Assembly (NCBI RefSeq): GCF_019145355.1
Contig: NZ_JAHSTY010000002.1
Location: 1,116,001-1,180,000, forward strand
Reading direction: 5' to 3'
DNA from: Pseudomonas azadiae
GTDB lineage: Bacteria; Pseudomonadota; Gammaproteobacteria; Pseudomonadales; Pseudomonadaceae
DNA: 64,000 bases
Made by a program: the position numbers and the translations under genes. Shown one piece after another: positions 7,932-19,751 of the stretch. Numbering within the stretch: the first letter of the stretch is position 1; every line of letters starts with the position of its first letter. The notes beneath the pieces were generated by a model that made no database searches, was not told the DNA's origin, and saw only the letters and a list, made by a program, of their open reading frames with translations.

Positions 7932-9025
7932 ATGTCATTGACCCTGGAACATGTCTCCCGTGTTGTCGAAGGCCAAACCTGGATTGACGACGCCAACCTG
8001 CGTTTCGAAGCCGGTTCGTTCAACGTCCTGCTCGGCCGCACCCTGTCCGGCAAGACCAGCCTGATGCGCCTGATGGCCGGGCTGGACAAGCCCGACAGCG
8101 GCCGCATCCTGATGAACGGCGTGGATGTCACGCAAAAACCGGTGCGCCTGCGCAACGTGTCGATGGTGTATCAGCAGTTCATCAACTACCCCACCATGAC
8201 CGTGTTCGAGAACATCGCCTCGCCGCTGCGCCAGGCCGGCGTGTCCAGCGAACTGATCCAGAGTAAGGTGCTGGAAACCGCCAGGATGTTGCGCATCGAG
8301 AAATTCCTGCAGCGCCACCCGCTGGAGCTCTCCGGCGGCCAGCAGCAACGCACGGCCATGGCCCGCGCGTTAGTCAAGGACGCCGAGCTGATCCTGTTCG
8401 ATGAGCCGCTGGTGAACCTGGACTACAAACTGCGCGAAGAGCTGCGTCAGGAAATGCGCGAGCTCTTTGCCGCGCGCCACACCATCGCCATCTACGCCAC
8501 CACCGAGCCCAATGAAGCCCTGGCCCTCGGCGGCACCACCACCATCCTGCACGAAGGCCGAGTGATCCAGAGCGGCAAGGCCGCCGAGGTCTATCACCAG
8601 CCGCAGACCGTGCTGGCCGCCGAGCTGTTTTCCGAGCCGCCGATCAACCTGATGCCGGGGCGCATCAGCGGTAACGAAGTGAGCTTCGCCAATTTCGTGC
8701 ACTTCCCGCTGAACGTCGACCTGCGCCCCATCGGCGAAGGCGAGTTCCGTTTCGGCGTACGCCCCAGCCATATCAGCCTGGTGCCGAGCAACGACGACGA
8801 CCTGGAGCTGGCGGTGACCGTGGAAGTCGCCGAGATCAGCGGCTCGGAAACCTTCCTGCATGTGCGCAGCGAGCACTTCCTGCTGGTGCTGCACCTGTCG
8901 GGGGTGCACGAATACGACGTCGACGCGCCGATCCGCGTGTATATCCCCACCCATAAACTGTTTGTGTTCGATGGCCAGGGCCGTTTGGTCCAGGCCCCTG
9001 GGCGCCGTGTTGCGAGGGTTGCCTG

Positions 9026-9026
<1 letters not shown>
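7932..9026 (+). CDS. glpS: Glycerol-type ABC importer ATPase GlpS-like, 364 aa
   Basis: This is one of two ATPases of a CUT1-like importer. It has a Walker A variant GRTLSGKT, the signature LSGGQQQR, Walker B LILFDEP and a C-terminal regulatory OB-like region. The H-loop histidine is not visible: the usual YVTHDQ region reads YATTEPNEA. The partner ATPase (next gene) has the reverse defect, so the pair probably forms a heterodimer with one canonical ATP site. Its stop overlaps the next start (ATGA-type), showing coupling. Gene order S-T-P-Q-U-V matches the rhizobial glycerol importer; the glycerol substrate is inferred from that. Confidence 0.8.
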
Positions 9027-10986
<1,960 letters not shown>

Positions 10987-10996
10987 GGCCGCCAAC

Positions 10997-11797
10997 ATGA
11001 GCAAACGCAAGCTTATTCCGTTACTCATCTACATCCTGTTCCTGCTGGTTCCGATCTACTGGCTGCTGAACATGTCCTTCAAGAGCAACACCGAAATCCT
11101 TGGCGGGCTGACTCTGTTTCCGCAGCACTTCACGCTGGCCAACTACAAGGTGATCTTCACTGACCCGAGCTGGTACACCGGCTACCTCAACTCGCTGTAC
11201 TACGTCAGCCTGAACACGGTGATCTCCCTGAGCGTGGCGCTGCCGGCGGCCTATGCGTTTTCGCGCTACCGCTTCCTTGGCGACAAGCACCTGTTCTTCT
11301 GGCTGTTGACCAACCGCATGGCGCCGCCGGCGGTGTTTCTGCTGCCGTTCTTCCAGCTGTATTCGTCCATCGGCCTGTTCGACACGCACATCGCCGTGGC
11401 CCTGGCGCACTGCCTTTTCAACGTGCCGTTGGCAGTGTGGATCCTGGAAGGCTTCATGTCCGGGGTGCCCAAGGAAATCGACGAAACCGCCTATATCGAC
11501 GGCTACTCGTTTCCCAAGTTCTTCGTGAAGATATTTATCCCGTTGATCGGCTCCGGCATCGGTGTGACCGCGTTTTTCTGCTTCATGTTTTCCTGGGTCG
11601 AACTGCTGCTGGCGCGCACGCTGACCTCGGTCAACGCCAAGCCCATCGCGGCGGTGATGACGCGCACGGTCTCGGCCTCGGGCATTGATTGGGGCGTGCT
11701 GGCGGCGGCGGGGGTGTTGACTATCCTTCCCGGCATGCTGGTGATCTGGTTTGTTCGCAACCACGTGGCCAAGGGCTTTGCCCTGGGCCGGGTCTGA
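10997..11797 (+). CDS. glpQ: ABC importer permease GlpQ-like, 266 aa
   Basis: This is the second permease subunit. It begins MSKRKLIPLLIYILFLLVP, a membrane anchor typical of MalG-like permeases, and carries the coupling loop IDETAYIDGYSFPKFFVKIFIP. It lies ten bases after the first permease gene. Do not confuse it with the glycerophosphodiesterase GlpQ; the name follows the rhizobial glpSTPQUV naming. Confidence 0.82.
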   Translation: MSKRKLIPLLIYILFLLVPIYWLLNMSFKSNTEILGGLTLFPQHFTLANYKVIFTDPSWYTGYLNSLYYVSLNTVISLSVALPAAYAFSRYRFLGDKHLFFWLLTNRMAPPAVFLLPFFQLYSSIGLFDTHIAVALAHCLFNVPLAVWILEGFMSGVPKEIDETAYIDGYSFPKFFVKIFIPLIGSGIGVTAFFCFMFSWVELLLARTLTSVNAKPIAAVMTRTVSASGIDWGVLAAAGVLTILPGMLVIWFVRNHVAKGFALGRV

Positions 11798-11807
11798 GGA
11801 GTCGATG

Positions 11808-12080
11808 ATGGAATGGATGGCCTGGACCACCCCCACTGCGTTGTTCTTTGGCGGCATCGCCCTGATTCTGGCGGGCATGACCACCTGGGAACTGCGCTCG
11901 CCGAGCATTCCTCGGCGCGGTTTTTTACCGATCAGCACCACCCGTGGTGATCGCCTGTTTATCGGTCTTCTCGGCAGCGCCTACCTGCATTTGCTGGTCA
12001 TCGGCGTTACCGACTGGAGCATCTGGGTGGCGTCCGCGCTCTCCCTGGTATGGCTGTTGAGTGTGATGCGTTGGGGCTAG
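11808..12080 (+). CDS. glpU: Small membrane protein GlpU-like (DUF2160), 90 aa
   Basis: This short protein has three hydrophobic segments (about residues 8-25, 49-66 and 69-85) and a conserved-looking MEWMAWT start, resembling the DUF2160 protein that accompanies glycerol-type importers. Two adjacent ATGs exist (11805, 11808). The GAGGAG at 11796-11801 is better spaced from 11808. Its presence between the permeases and the binding protein is the strongest reason for calling the whole operon glycerol-type. Its molecular role is not known to me. Confidence 0.72.
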   Translation: MEWMAWTTPTALFFGGIALILAGMTTWELRSPSIPRRGFLPISTTRGDRLFIGLLGSAYLHLLVIGVTDWSIWVASALSLVWLLSVMRWG

Positions 12081-12092
12081 GTGTGCACACCC

Positions 12093-12191
12093 TGTAGGAG
12101 CGAGCTTGCTCGCGAAATCGTCAACGATAACGCAGTGTTCCTGGTAGCCCGCGGTGTCTTTGAGTTCTTCGCGAGCAAGCTCGCTCCTACA
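12093..12191. repeat. REP doublet inside the importer operon
   Basis: TGTAGGAGCGAGCTTGCTCGCGAA and its complement face each other across about 50 bases. It lies between glpU and glpV, where a hairpin could separate expression of the membrane subunits from the abundant binding protein. An AGGAGGT ribosome site precedes glpV just downstream. Confidence 0.85.
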
Positions 12192-12240
12192 AGGGAGGTG
12201 ACCGCCGATAGTCCCGTATGAAAATAACCAGGAGGTCTCT

Positions 12241-13983
12241 ATGTTGAATAAGAACAATAAGCTGCGACATAGCATTTCATTGGCCGCCGTACTGGCCCTC
12301 AGCGGTTTGAGCGCCACGGCGTGGGCCGATGCGTATGAAGATGCCGCGAAAAAATGGATCGGCAGCGAGTTCAAACCGTCGACCCTGACGGCCGAACAGC
12401 AGTTGGAGGAGTTGAAGTGGTTTATCAAGGCCGCCGAACCCTTCCGTGGGATGAAGATCAACGTGGTGTCGGAAACCCTCACCACCCACGAGTACGAGTC
12501 CAAGGTACTGGCCAAGGCCTTCAGCGAAATCACCGGGATCAAGCTGACCCACGACCTGCTGCAGGAAGGCGACGTGGTGGAAAAGCTGCAAACCCAGATG
12601 CAGTCCGACAAGAACATCTATGACGGCTGGGTCAACGACTCGGACCTGATCGGTACGCACTTTCGTTACGGCAAGACCGAATCCATCACCGACCTGATGG
12701 CCAACGAAGGCAAGGACTTTACCTCGCCGACCCTCGACCTCAAGGATTTTATCGGCCTGTCCTTCACCACCGCGCCGGACGGCAAGATCTACCAATTGCC
12801 CGACCAGCAGTTCGCCAACCTCTACTGGTTCCGTGCCGACTGGTTCGAACGCCCGGAGCTGAAAGCCAAGTTCAAGGAAAAATACGGCTACGACCTCGGC
12901 GTGCCGGTGAACTGGTCGGCCTATGAAGACATCGCCAAGTTCTTCAGCGAAGACGTCAAGGAAATCGACGGCAAACGCATCTACGGGCACATGGACTACG
13001 GCAAAAAAGACCCGTCCCTGGGCTGGCGCTTCACCGATGCCTGGTTCTCCATGGCCGGTGGCGGCGACAAGGGCCTGCCCAACGGCTTGCCGGTGGACGA
13101 GTGGGGCATTCGCGTGGAGAACTGCCATCCGGTCGGCTCCAGCGTGACCCGTGGCGGCGACACCAATGGTCCGGCGGCGGTATTTGCCACGCAGAAATAC
13201 GTGGACTGGATGAAAGCCTATGCGCCGCCGGAAGCGGCGGGCATGACCTTCTCCGAATCCGGCCCGGTGCCGTCCCAGGGCAATATCGCGCAGCAGATCT
13301 TCTGGTACACCGCGTTTACCGCCGACATGGTCAAACCGGGCTTGCCGGTGGTGAACGCCGACGGTACGCCGAAATGGCGCATGGCGCCGTCGCCCGTCGG
13401 ACCTTACTGGGAAAAGGGCATGAAGAAGGGCTATCAGGACGTAGGTTCCTGGACCTTCCTCAAGTCGACCCCCGAGAAACAGAAACTCGCGGCCTGGCTT
13501 TACGCGCAGTTCGTGACCTCCAAAACCGTCTCGCTGAAGAAGACCATCGTCGGCCTGACGCCGATTCGTGAGTCCGACATCAATTCCCAGGCCATGACTG
13601 ACATGGCGCCCAAACTCGGTGGCCTGGTGGAGTTCTACCGCAGCCCGGCCCGGACCGAATGGTCGCCGACCGGCACCAACGTGCCGGACTACCCACGCCT
13701 GGCACAACTGTGGTGGAGCAACATCGCCGCCGCCGCCAGCGGCGAGAAAACCCCGCAGCAGGCCCTGGACAACCTGGCCAAGGAACAGGACGCGATCATG
13801 ACGCGCCTGGAACGCTCCAAGGTGCAACCGGTGTGCGGCCCGAAAATGAACCCCGAGCGTGACGCGCAATACTGGTTCGATCAGCCGGGCGCGCCAAAAC
13901 CGAAACTGGCGAACGAGAAGCCCAAGGGCGAGACCGTGAACTACAACGACCTGCTCAAATCGTGGGAGGCGGCGCGCAAGTAA
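12241..13983 (+). CDS. glpV: Periplasmic substrate-binding protein GlpV-like, 580 aa
   Basis: This is the extracytoplasmic binding protein of the importer. It has a signal peptide (MLNKNNKLRHSISLAAVLAL, cleavage after TAWA) and begins ADAYEDAAKKWIGSEF. At about 580 residues it is much larger than ordinary sugar-binding proteins, which is characteristic of the GlpV group. A strong AGGAGGT site precedes the ATG. A perfect hairpin terminator follows the stop by 18 bases, so this is the last gene of the operon. The substrate is inferred to be glycerol or a similar small polyol from family and gene order only. Confidence 0.82.
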   Translation: MLNKNNKLRHSISLAAVLALSGLSATAWADAYEDAAKKWIGSEFKPSTLTAEQQLEELKWFIKAAEPFRGMKINVVSETLTTHEYESKVLAKAFSEITGIKLTHDLLQEGDVVEKLQTQMQSDKNIYDGWVNDSDLIGTHFRYGKTESITDLMANEGKDFTSPTLDLKDFIGLSFTTAPDGKIYQLPDQQFANLYWFRADWFERPELKAKFKEKYGYDLGVPVNWSAYEDIAKFFSEDVKEIDGKRIYGHMDYGKKDPSLGWRFTDAWFSMAGGGDKGLPNGLPVDEWGIRVENCHPVGSSVTRGGDTNGPAAVFATQKYVDWMKAYAPPEAAGMTFSESGPVPSQGNIAQQIFWYTAFTADMVKPGLPVVNADGTPKWRMAPSPVGPYWEKGMKKGYQDVGSWTFLKSTPEKQKLAAWLYAQFVTSKTVSLKKTIVGLTPIRESDINSQAMTDMAPKLGGLVEFYRSPARTEWSPTGTNVPDYPRLAQLWWSNIAAAASGEKTPQQALDNLAKEQDAIMTRLERSKVQPVCGPKMNPERDAQYWFDQPGAPKPKLANEKPKGETVNYNDLLKSWEAARK

Positions 13984-14029: not shown

Positions 14030-14378
14030 GCTTCAAATACTGAAACACAGATCAATTGTGAACACAGATAAAATGTGGGAGCTGGCTTGCCTGCGAATGC
14101 GCAATATCAGCCAGCACTGCTTTCCCTGACACTCCGCTTTCACGAGCAAGTCGCACCGCCGCATACCCTTGGCGCCGCCTGCTCCCCGCATAAACTCCGC
14201 GCCGTATCCCTCGCCTGTGGCAACCCTTACCCATTGCCGCTGATCTACAGCTTCGCAACCCCGATTGAATTTTTTGCCCACTTCAAGGCTCTTCACTCTA
14301 GAAGCGTGTGGTTGAGCGCTCTTGCGTGGCCTCCTTGTGGTGGGGCCTGGTGTATCGGACTTTGCGGAAACTGCCATC
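14030..14378. other. Intergenic stretch with a half REP
   Basis: About 350 bases without a convincing gene. One TGTGGGAGCTGGCTTGCCTGCGA half-element lies near 14074-14097 with no complementary partner close by. The rest is ordinary composition; the HDO-type gene starts at its end with only a weak ribosome site. Confidence 0.6.
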
Positions 14379-15758
14379 ATGACTCTTTTCACAGCGCTGT
14401 CAGGCCAACCGGCCTCCATCTCCCACGCGGGGCCCGGCCATTATCAACGGCTGTATCAGCAGCTCTATGGCGAGGCGCAGGGTGCGCAAGAGGCTGCGCG
14501 GGATTTCCTGCAGGCGCAGTTGGCCCAGGTCGAGGATGCGACCAACGAATTGCCGGACAAGCCCGAGCAACTGCACGCCTGGGTTGAGCAGCGGTGTGCC
14601 GAGGTGGCCCAGGCGTACGCCGAGTACCTGGAGCAACGCCAGCAAGGCCGGCCACGTCGCTACTTCCAGAACAAGGCTCACGCGTTGTATGTATTGCAAC
14701 GTGTGGCGCCGACCAAGCAAGTCGATGGCGCCTGGCTCTACGGCCTGTTGCGCTATTGGCAAGACCCGCGTTTCGATGGCTTGCTCACCACTTACCTTGA
14801 AGAGCTGGGCGACGGCGAAGCCGCGCAGAATCACGTGGTGATCTACCGCAAGTTGCTCAACCAGCACGATGCCGACAGCGACGCCGGCCTGGAAGACGCG
14901 CATTACCTGCAAGGCGCGTTGCAAATGGCGTTGGGCCTGTGCGGCGAAGAGTTCCTGCCGGAGGTGATCGGTTACAACCTGGGCTACGAGCAATTGCCGC
15001 TGCACCTGTTGATCACCTCATACGAGCTGAGCGAGCTGGGCATCGACCCGTATTACTTCACGCTGCATGTGACCATCGACAACGCCAGCAGCGGCCATGC
15101 GTGCAAAGCCGCGCAGTCGGTGCTCAACCTGCTGCCGCTGGGCGAGGGCAGGGCGGAGTTCTACCGCCGCGTGGCCCAAGGCTATCGCCTCAATGACCTG
15201 GGGCCGGGCACAACCGCCATCATCAAGGATTTCAATTTGCACGATGAACTGGTCGCCCTGCTGGAGCGCAAGCGCTCCTACGGCCAGCACATGCATTCCG
15301 ATTACTGCCGCTTCGAAGGCAAGACGGTCAACCAATGGCTGGCCCAGCCGGGACAAATCGGCGCCTTTCTCCAGGCCCTTGAAGACAAAGGCTGGATCAG
15401 GCGCAACCAGGACCCGGGCGAGAGCCGCTTCTGGCAATTGATCGAGGGCGCGGGCGCCGCCATGTTCGGGGTGTTCAGCGGCTATGAGAAACATGTGCTT
15501 CACGACTGGATTGCGGGTGACTGGATCAGCGACCGACGCGTACCGCCGGCTCGTCCGGGCCGTGGCAAAAGCTTACCCCAGGACCCGCACCCGCCGGCCG
15601 ATCCGGACACCCAGGCGCTGGTGGACTCGCTGCGCGGCTTGCCGGATGAACAACAACTCCAAACGCTGATTGCGTGGATGTCCGCCCGCCGTCATTGCAC
15701 CCCGGCCGGGCTGTACGCCACGCGCCGCTTTATCCAATTGCGCGCGCGCCTGCGCTAA
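14379..15758 (+). CDS. Haem-oxygenase-like diiron oxidase family protein, 459 aa
   Basis: The protein resembles the iron-containing redox enzyme family (haem-oxygenase-like diiron oxidases, HDO). Candidate metal ligands are visible in the expected order: EELGDGEAAQNH (Glu141/142, His152), a Glu in SYELSELG (about 216-219) and HVTIDNASSGHA (His230, Asp234, His240). Family members such as UndA and BesC oxidise fatty-acid or amino-acid substrates with O2. A C-terminal extension of about 150 residues follows the catalytic bundle. The start at 14379 (MTLFTALSG) is chosen because upstream codons lack protein character. The stop is 12 bases before the methyltransferase gene, and a carboxylate-amine ligase follows that. 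The substrate is unknown. Confidence 0.75.
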   Translation: MTLFTALSGQPASISHAGPGHYQRLYQQLYGEAQGAQEAARDFLQAQLAQVEDATNELPDKPEQLHAWVEQRCAEVAQAYAEYLEQRQQGRPRRYFQNKAHALYVLQRVAPTKQVDGAWLYGLLRYWQDPRFDGLLTTYLEELGDGEAAQNHVVIYRKLLNQHDADSDAGLEDAHYLQGALQMALGLCGEEFLPEVIGYNLGYEQLPLHLLITSYELSELGIDPYYFTLHVTIDNASSGHACKAAQSVLNLLPLGEGRAEFYRRVAQGYRLNDLGPGTTAIIKDFNLHDELVALLERKRSYGQHMHSDYCRFEGKTVNQWLAQPGQIGAFLQALEDKGWIRRNQDPGESRFWQLIEGAGAAMFGVFSGYEKHVLHDWIAGDWISDRRVPPARPGRGKSLPQDPHPPADPDTQALVDSLRGLPDEQQLQTLIAWMSARRHCTPAGLYATRRFIQLRARLR

Positions 15759-15770
15759 GGAATGTCGTTC

Positions 15771-16715
15771 ATGTCTGCACAACAACTCGCCGATCGCGCC
15801 TTGATCAACCTGGGCCGGGGCCTCAAGGAGAACGGCTACCGGTTCATCACGCCCACGCCCTTGACCCACGAGCGCGTCTTCGGGCGCCAGGCTTCACCGT
15901 TGGCGAACGACCTGCGCGACGTGTTTGGCTGGTCGATGTCCTTTGATGCCGACCTGCTGCCGGCGGCGTTGCGCGAGGAACTGCTGCAAGCCGATGTCGT
16001 TGAAAAACACGACTCGCTGTGGCGCAGCGCAGTGCGCTGGTCGAGCCTGGAAGATCTGTTGTTCGCGCATTCGGCTTACCCGACCACGCAGTCGGATGCG
16101 GTGTTTTTCGGGCCGGACAGCTATCGGTTCGCCCAGGTGATCGAAGCGCATCTGCAGCAGCGCTTCGAGCCCGTGCGCCGCGCGGTGGATATCGGCTGTG
16201 GCGCCGGTGTCGGTGCGCTGGTCATCGCCCGTGCGCGGCACGACGCGCAGGTGCTGGCGGTGGATATAAACCCGCGCGCCCTGCGCATGACCGCAGTTAA
16301 CGCCGAGCTGGCCGGGCTGGGCAACGTCACGGCCTATCACAGCGACGTGCTGGCGAGCGTGGAAGGCGACTTCGACCTGATCGTGGCGAATCCGCCGTAC
16401 ATGAATGACGACCGCCAACGCGCCTATCGCCATGGCGGCGGAGCCTTGGGTGAACAACTGTCGGTGCGTATCGTCAGCGAGTCCCTGGGCCGCCTGGCCT
16501 TGGGGGGCAGCCTGGTGCTGTACACCGGCGTGGCGATTGTCGCGGGAGAAGATCCCTTCCTCGCGGCGGTCAAGCCATTGGTGGGCAGCGATGCGTTCGG
16601 CTGGACCTACCGTGAGCTTGACCCCGACGTGTTTGGTGAAGAGCTGGCAAAACCCGGCTACGAACGCGTGGAAAGGATTGCCGTCGTCGCGCTCACCGTC
16701 ACGCGCCTGCGCTGA
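15771..16715 (+). CDS. Class I SAM methyltransferase with NPPY motif, 314 aa
   Basis: This is an S-adenosylmethionine-dependent methyltransferase. The SAM loop VDIGCGAGVGALVIAR lies near residue 140 and the catalytic LIVANPPYMND near residue 205. The NPPY tetrapeptide is shared with HemK/PrmC-type glutamine-N methyltransferases and with N6-adenine enzymes, so the methyl acceptor is probably a nitrogen. About 130 N-terminal residues precede the catalytic fold and may bind substrate. The ATG at 15771 is better spaced from AAGGA than the one at 15762. It is tightly coupled to the diiron gene before it and the ligase gene six bases after it. Confidence 0.78.
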   Translation: MSAQQLADRALINLGRGLKENGYRFITPTPLTHERVFGRQASPLANDLRDVFGWSMSFDADLLPAALREELLQADVVEKHDSLWRSAVRWSSLEDLLFAHSAYPTTQSDAVFFGPDSYRFAQVIEAHLQQRFEPVRRAVDIGCGAGVGALVIARARHDAQVLAVDINPRALRMTAVNAELAGLGNVTAYHSDVLASVEGDFDLIVANPPYMNDDRQRAYRHGGGALGEQLSVRIVSESLGRLALGGSLVLYTGVAIVAGEDPFLAAVKPLVGSDAFGWTYRELDPDVFGEELAKPGYERVERIAVVALTVTRLR

Positions 16716-16720
16716 CGGTC

Positions 16721-17839
16721 ATGCTCACGTTTGGCATTGAAGAGGAGTACTTCATTACCGACCTGGGCACACGCAGGATGCTCAGCCAACCGTCAAGGGA
16801 GGTGGTGGCGGCCTGTCGCAGTGCCATTGGGGCAGGCTTTGCCTACGAGATGTTCCAGGGCCAGATCGAGGCGGCCTCGCCGGTGTTCCACACCCGCCGC
16901 GAGGCCGCCGATTACCTGGGTGCCGTGCGCCATAACCTGGCGCGCTCCCTGGGCAAGTTTGGACTGGGCATCGTGTGCGCCGGCAGCCATCCCCTGGCGG
17001 CGTGGCGTGAGCAAGTGCCGACGGAGCGCGTTCATTTCCAGCGGTTGTTCGAGGACACCCAGCGCGTAGCACGACGCAGCGTACTCTGTGGGTTGCACGT
17101 GCATGTCGGGGTGCCCGCCACCGTCGACCGTATCGCGGTGATGAATCAGGTCTCGCCCTGGCTGCCATTATTGCTGCTGCTCAGTTGCTCTTCGCCGTTC
17201 TGGGAGGGGGCGCCCACTGGGTTCATGAGTTACCGTCAGACCGCCTGTGATGAATGGCCGCGCATGGGCGTGCCCGAGCATTTTGCCGATTGGGCCGATT
17301 ACCAGCGCTACCTGGCCTTGCTCCAGCACATCGGCGCGATCAAGGCCGACGGCAACGGGTGGTGGGGTGTGCGTCCGTCGGCGCGCTATCCCACCCTGGA
17401 GCTGCGCATCACCGATGCATGCCCAAGACTTGCTGATGCCTTGGCCCTGGCAAGCTTGTTTCGGGTGATGGTCACGCATGCCTGCGCCCTGGATTGTCCA
17501 GGAGCACTGTTCAGCGCCGAGCGCCGCTGGCTGCTCCATGAAAACCGCTGGCAAGCCAAGCGCTATGGCGCGGACGGCACATTCGCCCTGGACGACCTGG
17601 GCAACCTCGGCACCGCCGAACAGTGGTTGCAAGGTGCCCGGCTGGAATTCGCAGCGACGGCCGAGGCCATGGGCGAACCGCATCTGTTCGACGACCTGCA
17701 CCGCTTGCTGCTGGCCGGCAACAGCGCGGTCGATCAACTGCGTGGATACGCCAGCGACCGCAGCGCCGGTACCGATGAACTGAGCAGTCTGCAAAACGTC
17801 GTCGACAGGCTGCTGGCGCAGAGTCGCAGTGACCATTGA
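16721..17839 (+). CDS. YbdK-type carboxylate-amine ligase, 372 aa
   Basis: This is an ATP-grasp-like ligase of the glutamate-cysteine ligase 2 family, which joins a carboxylate to an amine. The diagnostic start FGIEEEYFI is present, followed by a histidine-rich LCGLHVHVGVP and the C-terminal LELRITDACPRLADALALA segment. Length agrees with the family. It lies five bases after the methyltransferase stop, completing a three-gene set. YbdK has weak glutamate-cysteine ligase activity in E. coli, but many relatives act in small-molecule pathways; here the substrate is open. Confidence 0.82.
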   Translation: MLTFGIEEEYFITDLGTRRMLSQPSREVVAACRSAIGAGFAYEMFQGQIEAASPVFHTRREAADYLGAVRHNLARSLGKFGLGIVCAGSHPLAAWREQVPTERVHFQRLFEDTQRVARRSVLCGLHVHVGVPATVDRIAVMNQVSPWLPLLLLLSCSSPFWEGAPTGFMSYRQTACDEWPRMGVPEHFADWADYQRYLALLQHIGAIKADGNGWWGVRPSARYPTLELRITDACPRLADALALASLFRVMVTHACALDCPGALFSAERRWLLHENRWQAKRYGADGTFALDDLGNLGTAEQWLQGARLEFAATAEAMGEPHLFDDLHRLLLAGNSAVDQLRGYASDRSAGTDELSSLQNVVDRLLAQSRSDH

Positions 17840-17920: not shown

Positions 17921-19168
17921 ATGCGAGCGATGACCTTCCAAGGCGCCCACAAAGTGCAGGTCGATACGGTACCTGATCCCATCATCGAGCAACCCGACGA
18001 CATCATCCTGCGCGTGACCGCCACCGCCATCTGCGGCTCGGATTTGCACCTGTATCGGGGCAAGATCCCGACGGTGGAGCATGGCGATATCTTCGGCCAC
18101 GAGTTCATGGGCATCGTCGAAGAAACCGGCCCGGCCGTCACGGCGGTGCAGCGCGGCGACCGTGTGGTGATCCCCTTTGTGATTGCCTGTGGCGACTGCT
18201 TTTTCTGTCAAATGCAGCTGTTTGCCGCCTGCGAAACCACCAACGACGGGCGCGGTGCGATTCTCAACAAAAAGGCGATTCCACCGGGGGCGGCGCTGTT
18301 CGGCTACAGCCGCCTGTACGGCGGCATTCCCGGTGGCCAGGCCGAACTGGTGCGGGTGCCAAAGGCCAACGCCGGGCCGTTCAAGGTGCCCGGCACGCTG
18401 GCGGACGAAAAGGTATTGTTTCTCACCGACATCCTGCCCACCGCCTGGCAGGCGGTCATCAACGCGGGCATCGAAAAAGGCTCCAGCGTCGCGATCTACG
18501 GTGCCGGTCCCGTCGGTCTGCTGAGCGCAGCCTGTGCGCAGATGCTGGGCGCCGAACAGATTTTCATGGTCGACGACCATCCCTATCGGCTGGCCTACGC
18601 GCAAAAAATGTATGGCGTAATCCCGATCAATTTTGAACAAGACGATGACCCTGCCGACACGATCATCCGCCAGACGCGCGGCATGCGTGGCGTCGATGGG
18701 GTGGTGGATGCCGTTGGTTTCGAGGCCAAGGGCAGCACCACCGAAACTATCCTCACCACCCTCAAGATCGAAGGCAGCAGCGGCAAGGCCTTGCGCCAAT
18801 GCATCGCCGCCGTGCGCCGCGGCGGGGTGGTGAGCGTGGCCGGGGTGTATGCCGGGTTTATCCACGGCTTTATGTTCGGCGACGCCTTTGACAAGGGCCT
18901 GACGTTCAAGATGGGCCAGACCCATGTGCATCGCTTCCTGCCGGAACTGCTGGAGCATATCGAACTGGGGCACCTGAACCCCGAGGCGATCATCACCCAT
19001 CGCCTGTCCCTGGAGCAGGCGGCGCGGGGGTATGAACTGTTCGACAAGGCCGAAGAGGACTGCCGCAAGGTGATCCTGCTGCCGGGGATGAGCGACCGCC
19101 CGCTGACCGAGCCGTTTGAGGAAGAACTCACACCTGAGCTGCGCATGCAGGGCGTGCCCGGCTTATAA
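17921..19168 (+). CDS. Zinc-dependent alcohol dehydrogenase (MDR), 415 aa
   Basis: This medium-chain dehydrogenase oxidises an alcohol or glutathione adduct with NAD(P). Catalytic zinc ligands are visible in ICGSDLH and GHEFMG. The structural-zinc region is shortened to CGDCFFCQ plus a later Cys. The Rossmann motif is [13 protein letters not shown]. The overall form, including the inserted [27 protein letters not shown] loop, is close to formaldehyde-dehydrogenase-like MDRs. The ATG at 17921 follows TGGAG; the upstream GTG is less likely. It lies 81 bases after the ligase gene and may be part of the same transcript or independent. A REP doublet follows its stop. Confidence 0.82.
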
Positions 19169-19319: not shown

Positions 19320-19751
19320 TCAGGCCGCAGCTTGCGGCTGAATGTGCAACTGGCCTTCCACCTCCTTGACCAACCCACTGGCCAGGAACAGCGGCGCAAT
19401 ACGGTTATGCAGTTGCGGCTCGACAAAGGCCTTCACGGTATCCATCACCAACACGCCGTTGAGCGGCAACTCGGCCTTGGCGTACGACAACCAGGCCTTC
19501 TTCAGCATCGCGAGCACGTCACTGCCTGCCGTAGAGGCGAAGCGACGGTGGGCGGGTTTGCCGTCAAAAGTAAAGTTATGCTGATAGGCGTAGCCGCTTT
19601 CATCGCCATTGCTGGCGATGCAGCGGATGCAGGTACACGGGCCGTCACCGAAAGCACTGCGCAGGTAGGCGTTGAAGTCCACCACGGGCTTGAGTGACAG
19701 GCGCTTATCGACCTCGAACAAGTCCCCGGTCATTTTTTCGTCAGTGTCCAA
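19320..19751 (-). CDS. Conserved hypothetical protein, 143 aa
   Basis: A soluble protein beginning MDTDEKMTGDLFEVDKRL, without signal peptide. It holds a CTCIRC cysteine cluster (around residues 39-44) that could bind metal, and a central aromatic stretch ESGYAYQHNFTFDGKPAH. The M at residue 7 (19733) is an alternative start; GAGGA lies directly against the first ATG. It stands alone between a REP doublet and an intergenic stretch. I do not recognise a family. Confidence 0.6.
   Translation of the reverse strand: MDTDEKMTGDLFEVDKRLSLKPVVDFNAYLRSAFGDGPCTCIRCIASNGDESGYAYQHNFTFDGKPAHRRFASTAGSDVLAMLKKAWLSYAKAELPLNGVLVMDTVKAFVEPQLHNRIAPLFLASGLVKEVEGQLHIQPQAAA

Follow-up and report, generated by a model that had tools for sequence, protein, structure and literature searches.

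A 64,000-nucleotide stretch of the Pseudomonas azadiae genome (contig NZ_JAHSTY010000002.1, positions 1,116,001 to 1,180,000; i.e. the window) carries a row of genes for a predicted oxidase of the HDO type, an NPPY-type methyltransferase and a YbdK-type carboxylate-amine ligase. Comparisons among Pseudomonas genomes showed that the HDO and methyltransferase constitute a two-gene core module, with the ligase as an accessory. DtpC, a drying-protection protein of Acinetobacter baumannii, is homologous to the HDO, and the gene pairing suggests that DtpC makes a small protective molecule. The best reading, of moderate confidence, is a module for stress conditions in which a basic and perhaps arginine-derived small molecule undergoes N-oxygenation and N-methylation.

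HDO and methyltransferase form a two-gene core module

Inspection of open reading frames (ORFs) and family scans confirmed the initial annotation of three intact ORFs on the + strand with intergenic gaps of 12 and 5 bases; ATG codons at 14379 and 15771 were taken as the starts of the HDO and methyltransferase. Co-conservation was examined in 149 Pseudomonas genomes using a threshold of E <= 1e-20 for the methyltransferase. HDO hits in 94 genomes were reduced to 92 by dropping two genomes (G079 and G083) that had the long paralogue only, and the 92 take in one gene with an internal stop (G134) and one in two pieces (G034). The methyltransferase was present in exactly the same 92 genomes and lay within 3 kb of the HDO in every one. 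Both genes were on the same strand in all 55 fetched loci in which both were called, with a 4-base overlap in 10, and some of the larger gaps are probably start-codon miscalls.

The ligase behaved differently from the methyltransferase. It was found in 45 of the 149 genomes, each with an HDO, and lay within 5 kb in 37 and elsewhere in 8; its position varied, being downstream, on the opposite strand beside the pair or not in the stretch at all. On a 63-row HDO tree, the ligase label changed no fewer than 16 times and the methyltransferase label no fewer than two, where absence means none within the fetched stretch (the genome of locus L095 has a methyltransferase elsewhere) and the methyltransferase labels of two loci missed by the ORF caller (L097 and L111) were assigned by hand from genome searches. 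Presence in 45 of 92 HDO genomes and the number of tree changes rule out the ligase as a core member, indicating that the core is the HDO-methyltransferase pair. The expectation that all three genes would be co-conserved thus held for the pair and failed for the ligase.

Features of the window, with positions numbered from its first nucleotide
Feature	Position	Strand	Basis or comment
ECF-like promoter element GAATTTT-N15-CTCT	14267..14292	+	5' of HDO; pattern match, putative function
DtpC-type HDO, 459 aa; predicted dimetal oxidase, perhaps N-oxygenase	14379..15758	+	PF14518, DtpC homology, model
NPPY class I S-adenosylmethionine-dependent methyltransferase, 314 aa; probably N-methylating	15771..16715	+	PF05175; model matches AerE/GenN
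YbdK-type (GCS2) carboxylate-amine ligase, 372 aa; optional third gene	16721..17839	+	NF010039, TIGR02050 above cut-offs
Zn-dependent alcohol/formaldehyde-dehydrogenase-like enzyme; neighbour, membership uncertain	17921..19168	+	PF08240, PF00107

Enzyme families, DtpC and other partners of the methyltransferase

The window HDO scored 90.6 bits on PF14518 (cut-off 28.9), matched no NCBIfam model at E <= 0.1 and was 98% like the HDO of Pseudomonas cedrina, the nearest of seven named relatives found in genome contigs. A complete set of six candidate metal ligands, as anticipated by the initial annotation, was present at the level of sequence: the candidates (three histidines and three carboxylates, i.e. 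E142, H152, E204, H230, D234 and H240) were invariant in alignments of 34 and 69 rows selected by the analyst (34/34 and 69/69), with E204 and H240 being putative ligands. In the structural model (predicted local distance difference test score, 86.7), a helix at residues 225-233 stops before D234 and another at 240-251 begins at H240. The solved structures closest to this model were RohS, HrmI and SznF, which share its fold (an N-terminal helical part and the HDO core) mostly over residues 10-300 at 11-15% identity; the part beyond about residue 300 lies mostly outside the aligned range. SznF carries a C-terminal cupin domain and no Pfam cupin match was obtained in the window HDO, so the latter may work like SznF but is not SznF. 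SznF (on methylarginine), RohS and GntA act on guanidines, and HrmI acts on lysine (title of 9nh9). From the model, the window HDO is perhaps an N-oxygenase of an amine or guanidine.

The methyltransferase contains ANPPY and scored 64.9 bits on PF05175 when scanned from 15762. Its model was closest, over residues 4-314 (i.e. its whole length), to AerE and GenN, which are natural-product N-methyltransferases of aeronamide and gentamicin biosynthesis; identities were 15-24%, and AerE and GenN act on a peptide and an aminoglycoside, respectively. The ligase begins MLTFGIEEEY, scored 213 bits on PF04107 and passed the curated cut-offs of NF010039 (PRK13515; 'carboxylate-amine ligase', 403.9 versus 371 bits) and TIGR02050 (321.1 versus 176.4), with only 112.7 bits to the solved YbdK protein itself. 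We know of no characterised YbdK-family member in such a context. Ergothioneine, an antioxidant, is made by a ligase, an iron oxidase and an N-methyltransferase, i.e. the same three enzyme classes. The window ligase misses the EgtA cut-off, however (TIGR03444, 15.6 versus 370.8 bits), and by Pfam the HDO and methyltransferase are not EgtB and EgtD; the parallel is one of analogy, not membership.

Homology to DtpC and the frequent DNA-repair and stress neighbourhoods described below had been missed by the initial annotation. The window HDO was 40% identical to A. baumannii DtpC over 422 residues (window residues 37-454), i.e. past residue 300 too. With the DtpC start codon chosen to fit the published residue numbering, E143, H153 and H232 of DtpC align with E142, H152 and H230 of the window protein, and all three are conserved. 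According to the 2026 report by Farrow, Wells and Pesci (PMC13232832), alanine at any of these three positions disrupts protection, dtpC is co-transcribed with katE, and either gene is enough for drying survival, such that a single dtpC deletion has no effect and double mutants, once dried, accumulate hydrogen peroxide. DtpC is described there as limiting peroxide and death in dried cells redundantly with the catalase KatE, and its authors offer three possible mechanisms, namely iron sequestration, scavenging or the making of a small molecule that protects; the main text names neither a methyltransferase nor a ligase. The spacing published for dtpC-katE is also seen in the A. baumannii record (L080), where 54 bases separate the end of the HDO gene from a catalase-like ORF. 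The two systems share the HDO type, metal-site residues and a stress-gene neighbourhood. They differ in that katE is co-transcribed with dtpC and that the A. baumannii record lacks a full-length methyltransferase or ligase match; dried-cell protection and lower peroxide are known only for A. baumannii DtpC (PMC13232832). Relatives of the HDO were also examined on three plasmids (two of Acinetobacter and one of Comamonadaceae), where the genes nearby were those for catalase and trehalose synthesis or for YsnF-like and ferritin-like proteins.

A long DtpC-like paralogue of 681-734 aa (27-34% identity; HNTIDNVSTGH in the L072 copy) was observed in a biosynthetic-looking cluster at four loci (L072, L073:3611-12326, L074:4000-12623 and L075), each time with a carbamoyltransferase-cluster gene. 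At L073 and, by clustering, at L074, the cluster further includes a TauD-like oxygenase and an ATP-grasp enzyme whose C-terminal domain is of the L-amino-acid-ligase kind.

Partners of the methyltransferase were then compared outside Pseudomonas. Among 299 genomes across the phylum, 12 had the HDO (E <= 1e-30), 13 the methyltransferase (E <= 1e-20) and 10 both. Thirteen methyltransferase loci outside Pseudomonadaceae were examined (L129-L132, L134 and L136-L143), and an HDO adjoined the methyltransferase in seven, one being DtpC-type and six of another type (that of L142 is split over two frames). Two of these second-type HDOs matched HrmI among solved structures (E = 6e-29 and 4.3e-29) and the remainder were 46-65% identical to this pair or to one another; four compared with the window HDO gave no BLASTP match at E 1e-3. 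At a further locus (L129), the methyltransferase is flanked by a GntA-type N-hydroxylase (NF041366, 236.1 versus 145 bits) and, on the other side, by an EgtD-type histidine methyltransferase (TIGR03438, 307.2 versus 290.9); these three genes (L129:7017-9893) are a likely operon, near a Mn-catalase, in a genome with no DtpC-type HDO match at E <= 1e-30. The other five loci showed neither enzyme in the fetched flank; a DtpC-type HDO is present elsewhere in the L132 genome, and an HrmI-like HDO is carried by another plasmid of the L140 strain. Among plasmid records, 22 had the methyltransferase and 17 the HrmI-like HDO; in 10 of each set the two genes lay within 3 kb of each other. A recurrent theme is the pairing of this N-methyltransferase with an N-oxygenase of varying family, often in stress or repair neighbourhoods.

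Two of these associations bear on the substrate. A plasmid of Legionella sainthelensi encodes a fusion protein in which the methyltransferase makes up the C-terminal half and a member of the arginine deiminase/dimethylargininase superfamily the N-terminal half (34 bits on PF02274 versus a cut-off of 22.8; 107.9 on NF045659, below its 300); the fusion gene is followed by an HDO, LigD and Ku. In Sphingobium yanoikuyae (L143:1493-9232), the gene order is cyanophycin synthetase, isoaspartyl-peptidase-like gene, cyanophycinase, methyltransferase, HrmI-like HDO and dicarboxylate symporter, for which a cyanophycin-derived metabolite is possible. Both the fusion and the cyanophycin genes point towards arginine; taken with the substrates of SznF, RohS, GntA and HrmI, they make a basic and probably arginine-derived substrate the favoured one.

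Stress links, proposed function and alternatives

Flanking genes varied from clade to clade, and no further gene family was fixed beside the pair in clustered neighbourhoods. Recurrent neighbours were LigD, Ku, Mn-catalase, hemerythrin, DUF421, DUF4142 and short-chain dehydrogenase (one representative of each confirmed) and Zn-dehydrogenases resembling that at 17921-19168. LigD, Ku or Mn-catalase was present in 10 and absent from 22 of 32 HDO loci chosen for diversity before the Ku search, leaving out later loci partly picked for Ku proximity. Ku was encoded by 91 of the 92 HDO genomes as compared to 19 of the 57 others (Fisher p = 5e-20, a value that ignores kinship). In 15 of 91 genomes no more than 10 kb separated HDO and Ku, against an expectation of about 0.3 from length alone (91 x 20 kb / 6 Mb); distances refer to same-contig pairs, and many of the genomes are drafts.

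A k-mer comparison of upstream regions gave a GAATYTT element, which we take to resemble sites of extracytoplasmic function (ECF) sigma factors of the AlgU/RpoE-like kind. The pattern GAAYYTT-N13-17-CTCY occurred 5' of 28 of 60 HDO genes as compared to 2 of the 934 other genes at these loci, and 5' of 18 of 48 HDO genes outside the window's own synteny group; as the pattern was picked post hoc, its counts against other genes are descriptive. The window element corresponds to G000:C2:1130267-1130292 in the whole genome, which contains four exact matches, and the ORFs at the other three, judged by eye, form no coherent regulon.

The preferred reading would work as follows. An ECF-type sigma factor would turn the module on under envelope, drying or osmotic stress, and the HDO, using a diiron (or Fe/Mn) site and O2, would act on a basic compound derived from an amino acid and oxygenate one of its nitrogens; the compound would most likely be a guanidine or amine, namely arginine or something related to it. 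The methyltransferase would N-methylate the same compound before or after oxygenation, and in about half of the Pseudomonas strains the ligase would attach an amino acid through an amide linkage. Alongside catalases and repair by non-homologous end joining, the product would shield cells under stress or drying from the damage done by peroxide and iron. The constant methyltransferase partner in Pseudomonas and its other N-oxygenase partners favour the small-molecule option for DtpC. A wider proposal is put forward tentatively, as less likely than not: that DtpC-type HDOs and the methyltransferase mark a pathway which is widespread but has gone unrecognised, and whose product, a protective N-oxygenated and N-methylated metabolite derived from arginine or a guanidine, is made under drying and oxidative stress and acts as an ergothioneine-like antioxidant, with N-oxygenases that differ between bacteria (DtpC-, HrmI- or GntA-type) and optional peptide-bond enzymes (YbdK ligase). 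How DtpC protects is a question that its discoverers leave open, and the pair names genes with which the small-molecule option can be tested; if that option is right, it adds a class of protective metabolite and a new biological role of HDO chemistry. DtpC itself was already known, with no second paper on it found in the literature searched; the new elements are its coupling to the methyltransferase and optional ligase, the exchange of N-oxygenases, the Ku/LigD link and the shared promoter-like element, none of which was found in the open-licence literature searched, mostly judged by title and abstract. As the initial annotation had stated, no named pathway with the three-gene set was found in the literature searched, judged by title and the start of the abstract.

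Several observations weigh against this reading. The only methyltransferase matches in the 4.09-Mb A. baumannii record were short and partial (the best, of 58.9 bits, covered 125 of 316 positions), and a ligase search run without a positive control gave no match there. As no full-length methyltransferase was found in that record, DtpC protection there cannot depend on this methylation; either an unmethylated product suffices in A. baumannii or the HDO protects by another route, and DtpC could be a direct iron sequesterer or peroxide scavenger. The pairing also has exceptions: six of the 63 tree rows had no methyltransferase in the stretch, two genomes of family f10 with the HDO had no methyltransferase match, five of the 13 loci outside Pseudomonadaceae had no N-oxygenase in the fetched flank, and seven of the 17 plasmid records with an HrmI-like HDO had no methyltransferase match (in the three of these that were opened, none stood beside the HDO). 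The last metal motif of the window HDO is HxxxDx5H, not HxxxDxxH, a further difference from SznF, RohS and HrmI, and fold likeness does not establish function. In P. azadiae, Ku lies about 280 kb from the HDO, and the Ku association as a whole takes no account of kinship among genomes. An RpoS-type -10 element (CTA[TC][AG]CT) was rejected, being found upstream of 2 of 60 HDO genes, below the mean of shuffles (3.7), and therefore not enriched. No expression, phenotype or chemistry was found for the Pseudomonas genes.

A first alternative is that the HDO protects alone, as an iron sink, a slow scavenger of peroxide or superoxide or a CADD-like self-modifying enzyme; the target of the methyltransferase would then be a protein, either the HDO or some other (HemK/PrmC-like Gln/Asn N-methylation), and the ligase would be a hitch-hiker. 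DtpC works, with lower peroxide in dried cells, in a species whose record has no full-length methyltransferase or ligase match, and both sequestration and scavenging are on its authors' list (PMC13232832). NPPY enzymes include protein N5-glutamine methyltransferases, the PrmC model gives 77.2 bits and AerE, the top fold match, has a peptide substrate. This explanation is nevertheless considered unlikely: the PrmC and HemK cut-offs were missed (TIGR03534, 77.2 versus 199.1 bits; TIGR00536, 63.9 versus 115.5), and pairing of the methyltransferase with HrmI-like HDOs and a GntA-type enzyme is unexpected for an enzyme that modifies DtpC.

Two other explanations were considered. HDO, N-methyltransferase and ligase are typical tailoring enzymes, and the DtpC-like paralogue clusters with carbamoyltransferase, ATP-grasp and TauD-like enzymes (L073; L074 by clustering), as might be expected of a conventional secondary-metabolite cassette for a signal, antibiotic or siderophore-like compound with no main role in stress protection. 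Carriage of the pair by 92 of 149 Pseudomonas genomes with no other family fixed beside it, the Ku, LigD or catalase neighbours at part of the loci and the DtpC phenotype make this improbable. The small-molecule tailoring proposed initially survives as the best reading, with HDO and methyltransferase as one unit; a fixed three-gene cassette does not. Damage control, in which the enzymes would repair or detoxify oxidised or methylated amino acids and the downstream dehydrogenase would remove formaldehyde, appears very improbable. The dehydrogenase (17921-19168) does resemble glutathione-independent formaldehyde dehydrogenase (193.1 bits on TIGR02819) and recurs in 14 fetched loci, window included, and Zn-dehydrogenases occur in L081 and L132 (not compared with the window enzyme). 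However, the score is below the cut-off of 636.95, the enzyme is not a fixed neighbour, its initially suggested membership of the cassette being uncertain, and the HDOs described in the consulted part of a review serve biosynthesis (PMC13108848).

Other genes of the window and related loci

Upstream of the three genes lies an ABC-transporter-like operon (7932-13983) encoding two ATPases, two permeases, a 91-aa protein and a 580-aa solute-binding-like protein; the roles of the first five genes were assigned by eye and the 580-aa protein had no Pfam match. Synteny of this operon with the cassette is kept in close relatives. Past the dehydrogenase, a 143-aa protein on the opposite strand (19320-19751) is conserved in 12 loci of the window's group, window included, and had no Pfam match. 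A reading as anti-phage defence was unsupported: PADLOC models matched none of the HDO, ligase and dehydrogenase, and the methyltransferase matched only parts of methyltransferase models (best mad2, 77.3 bits, residues 107-261).

On two other Sphingobium plasmids (L138:5962-8153 and L139:5905-8150), the methyltransferase overlaps an amino-acid/glutamate symporter gene and an HDO was not detected within 6 kb. An HrmI-like HDO gene overlaps a response-regulator gene at L145:4974-6208, with a short-chain dehydrogenase/reductase and small stress-type proteins alongside. A Paraburkholderia gene annotated as LodA/GoxA CTQ-dependent oxidase (L135:3192-6602) includes an HDO-like part and is followed by a flavin oxidoreductase and an octopine/nopaline dehydrogenase-like gene.

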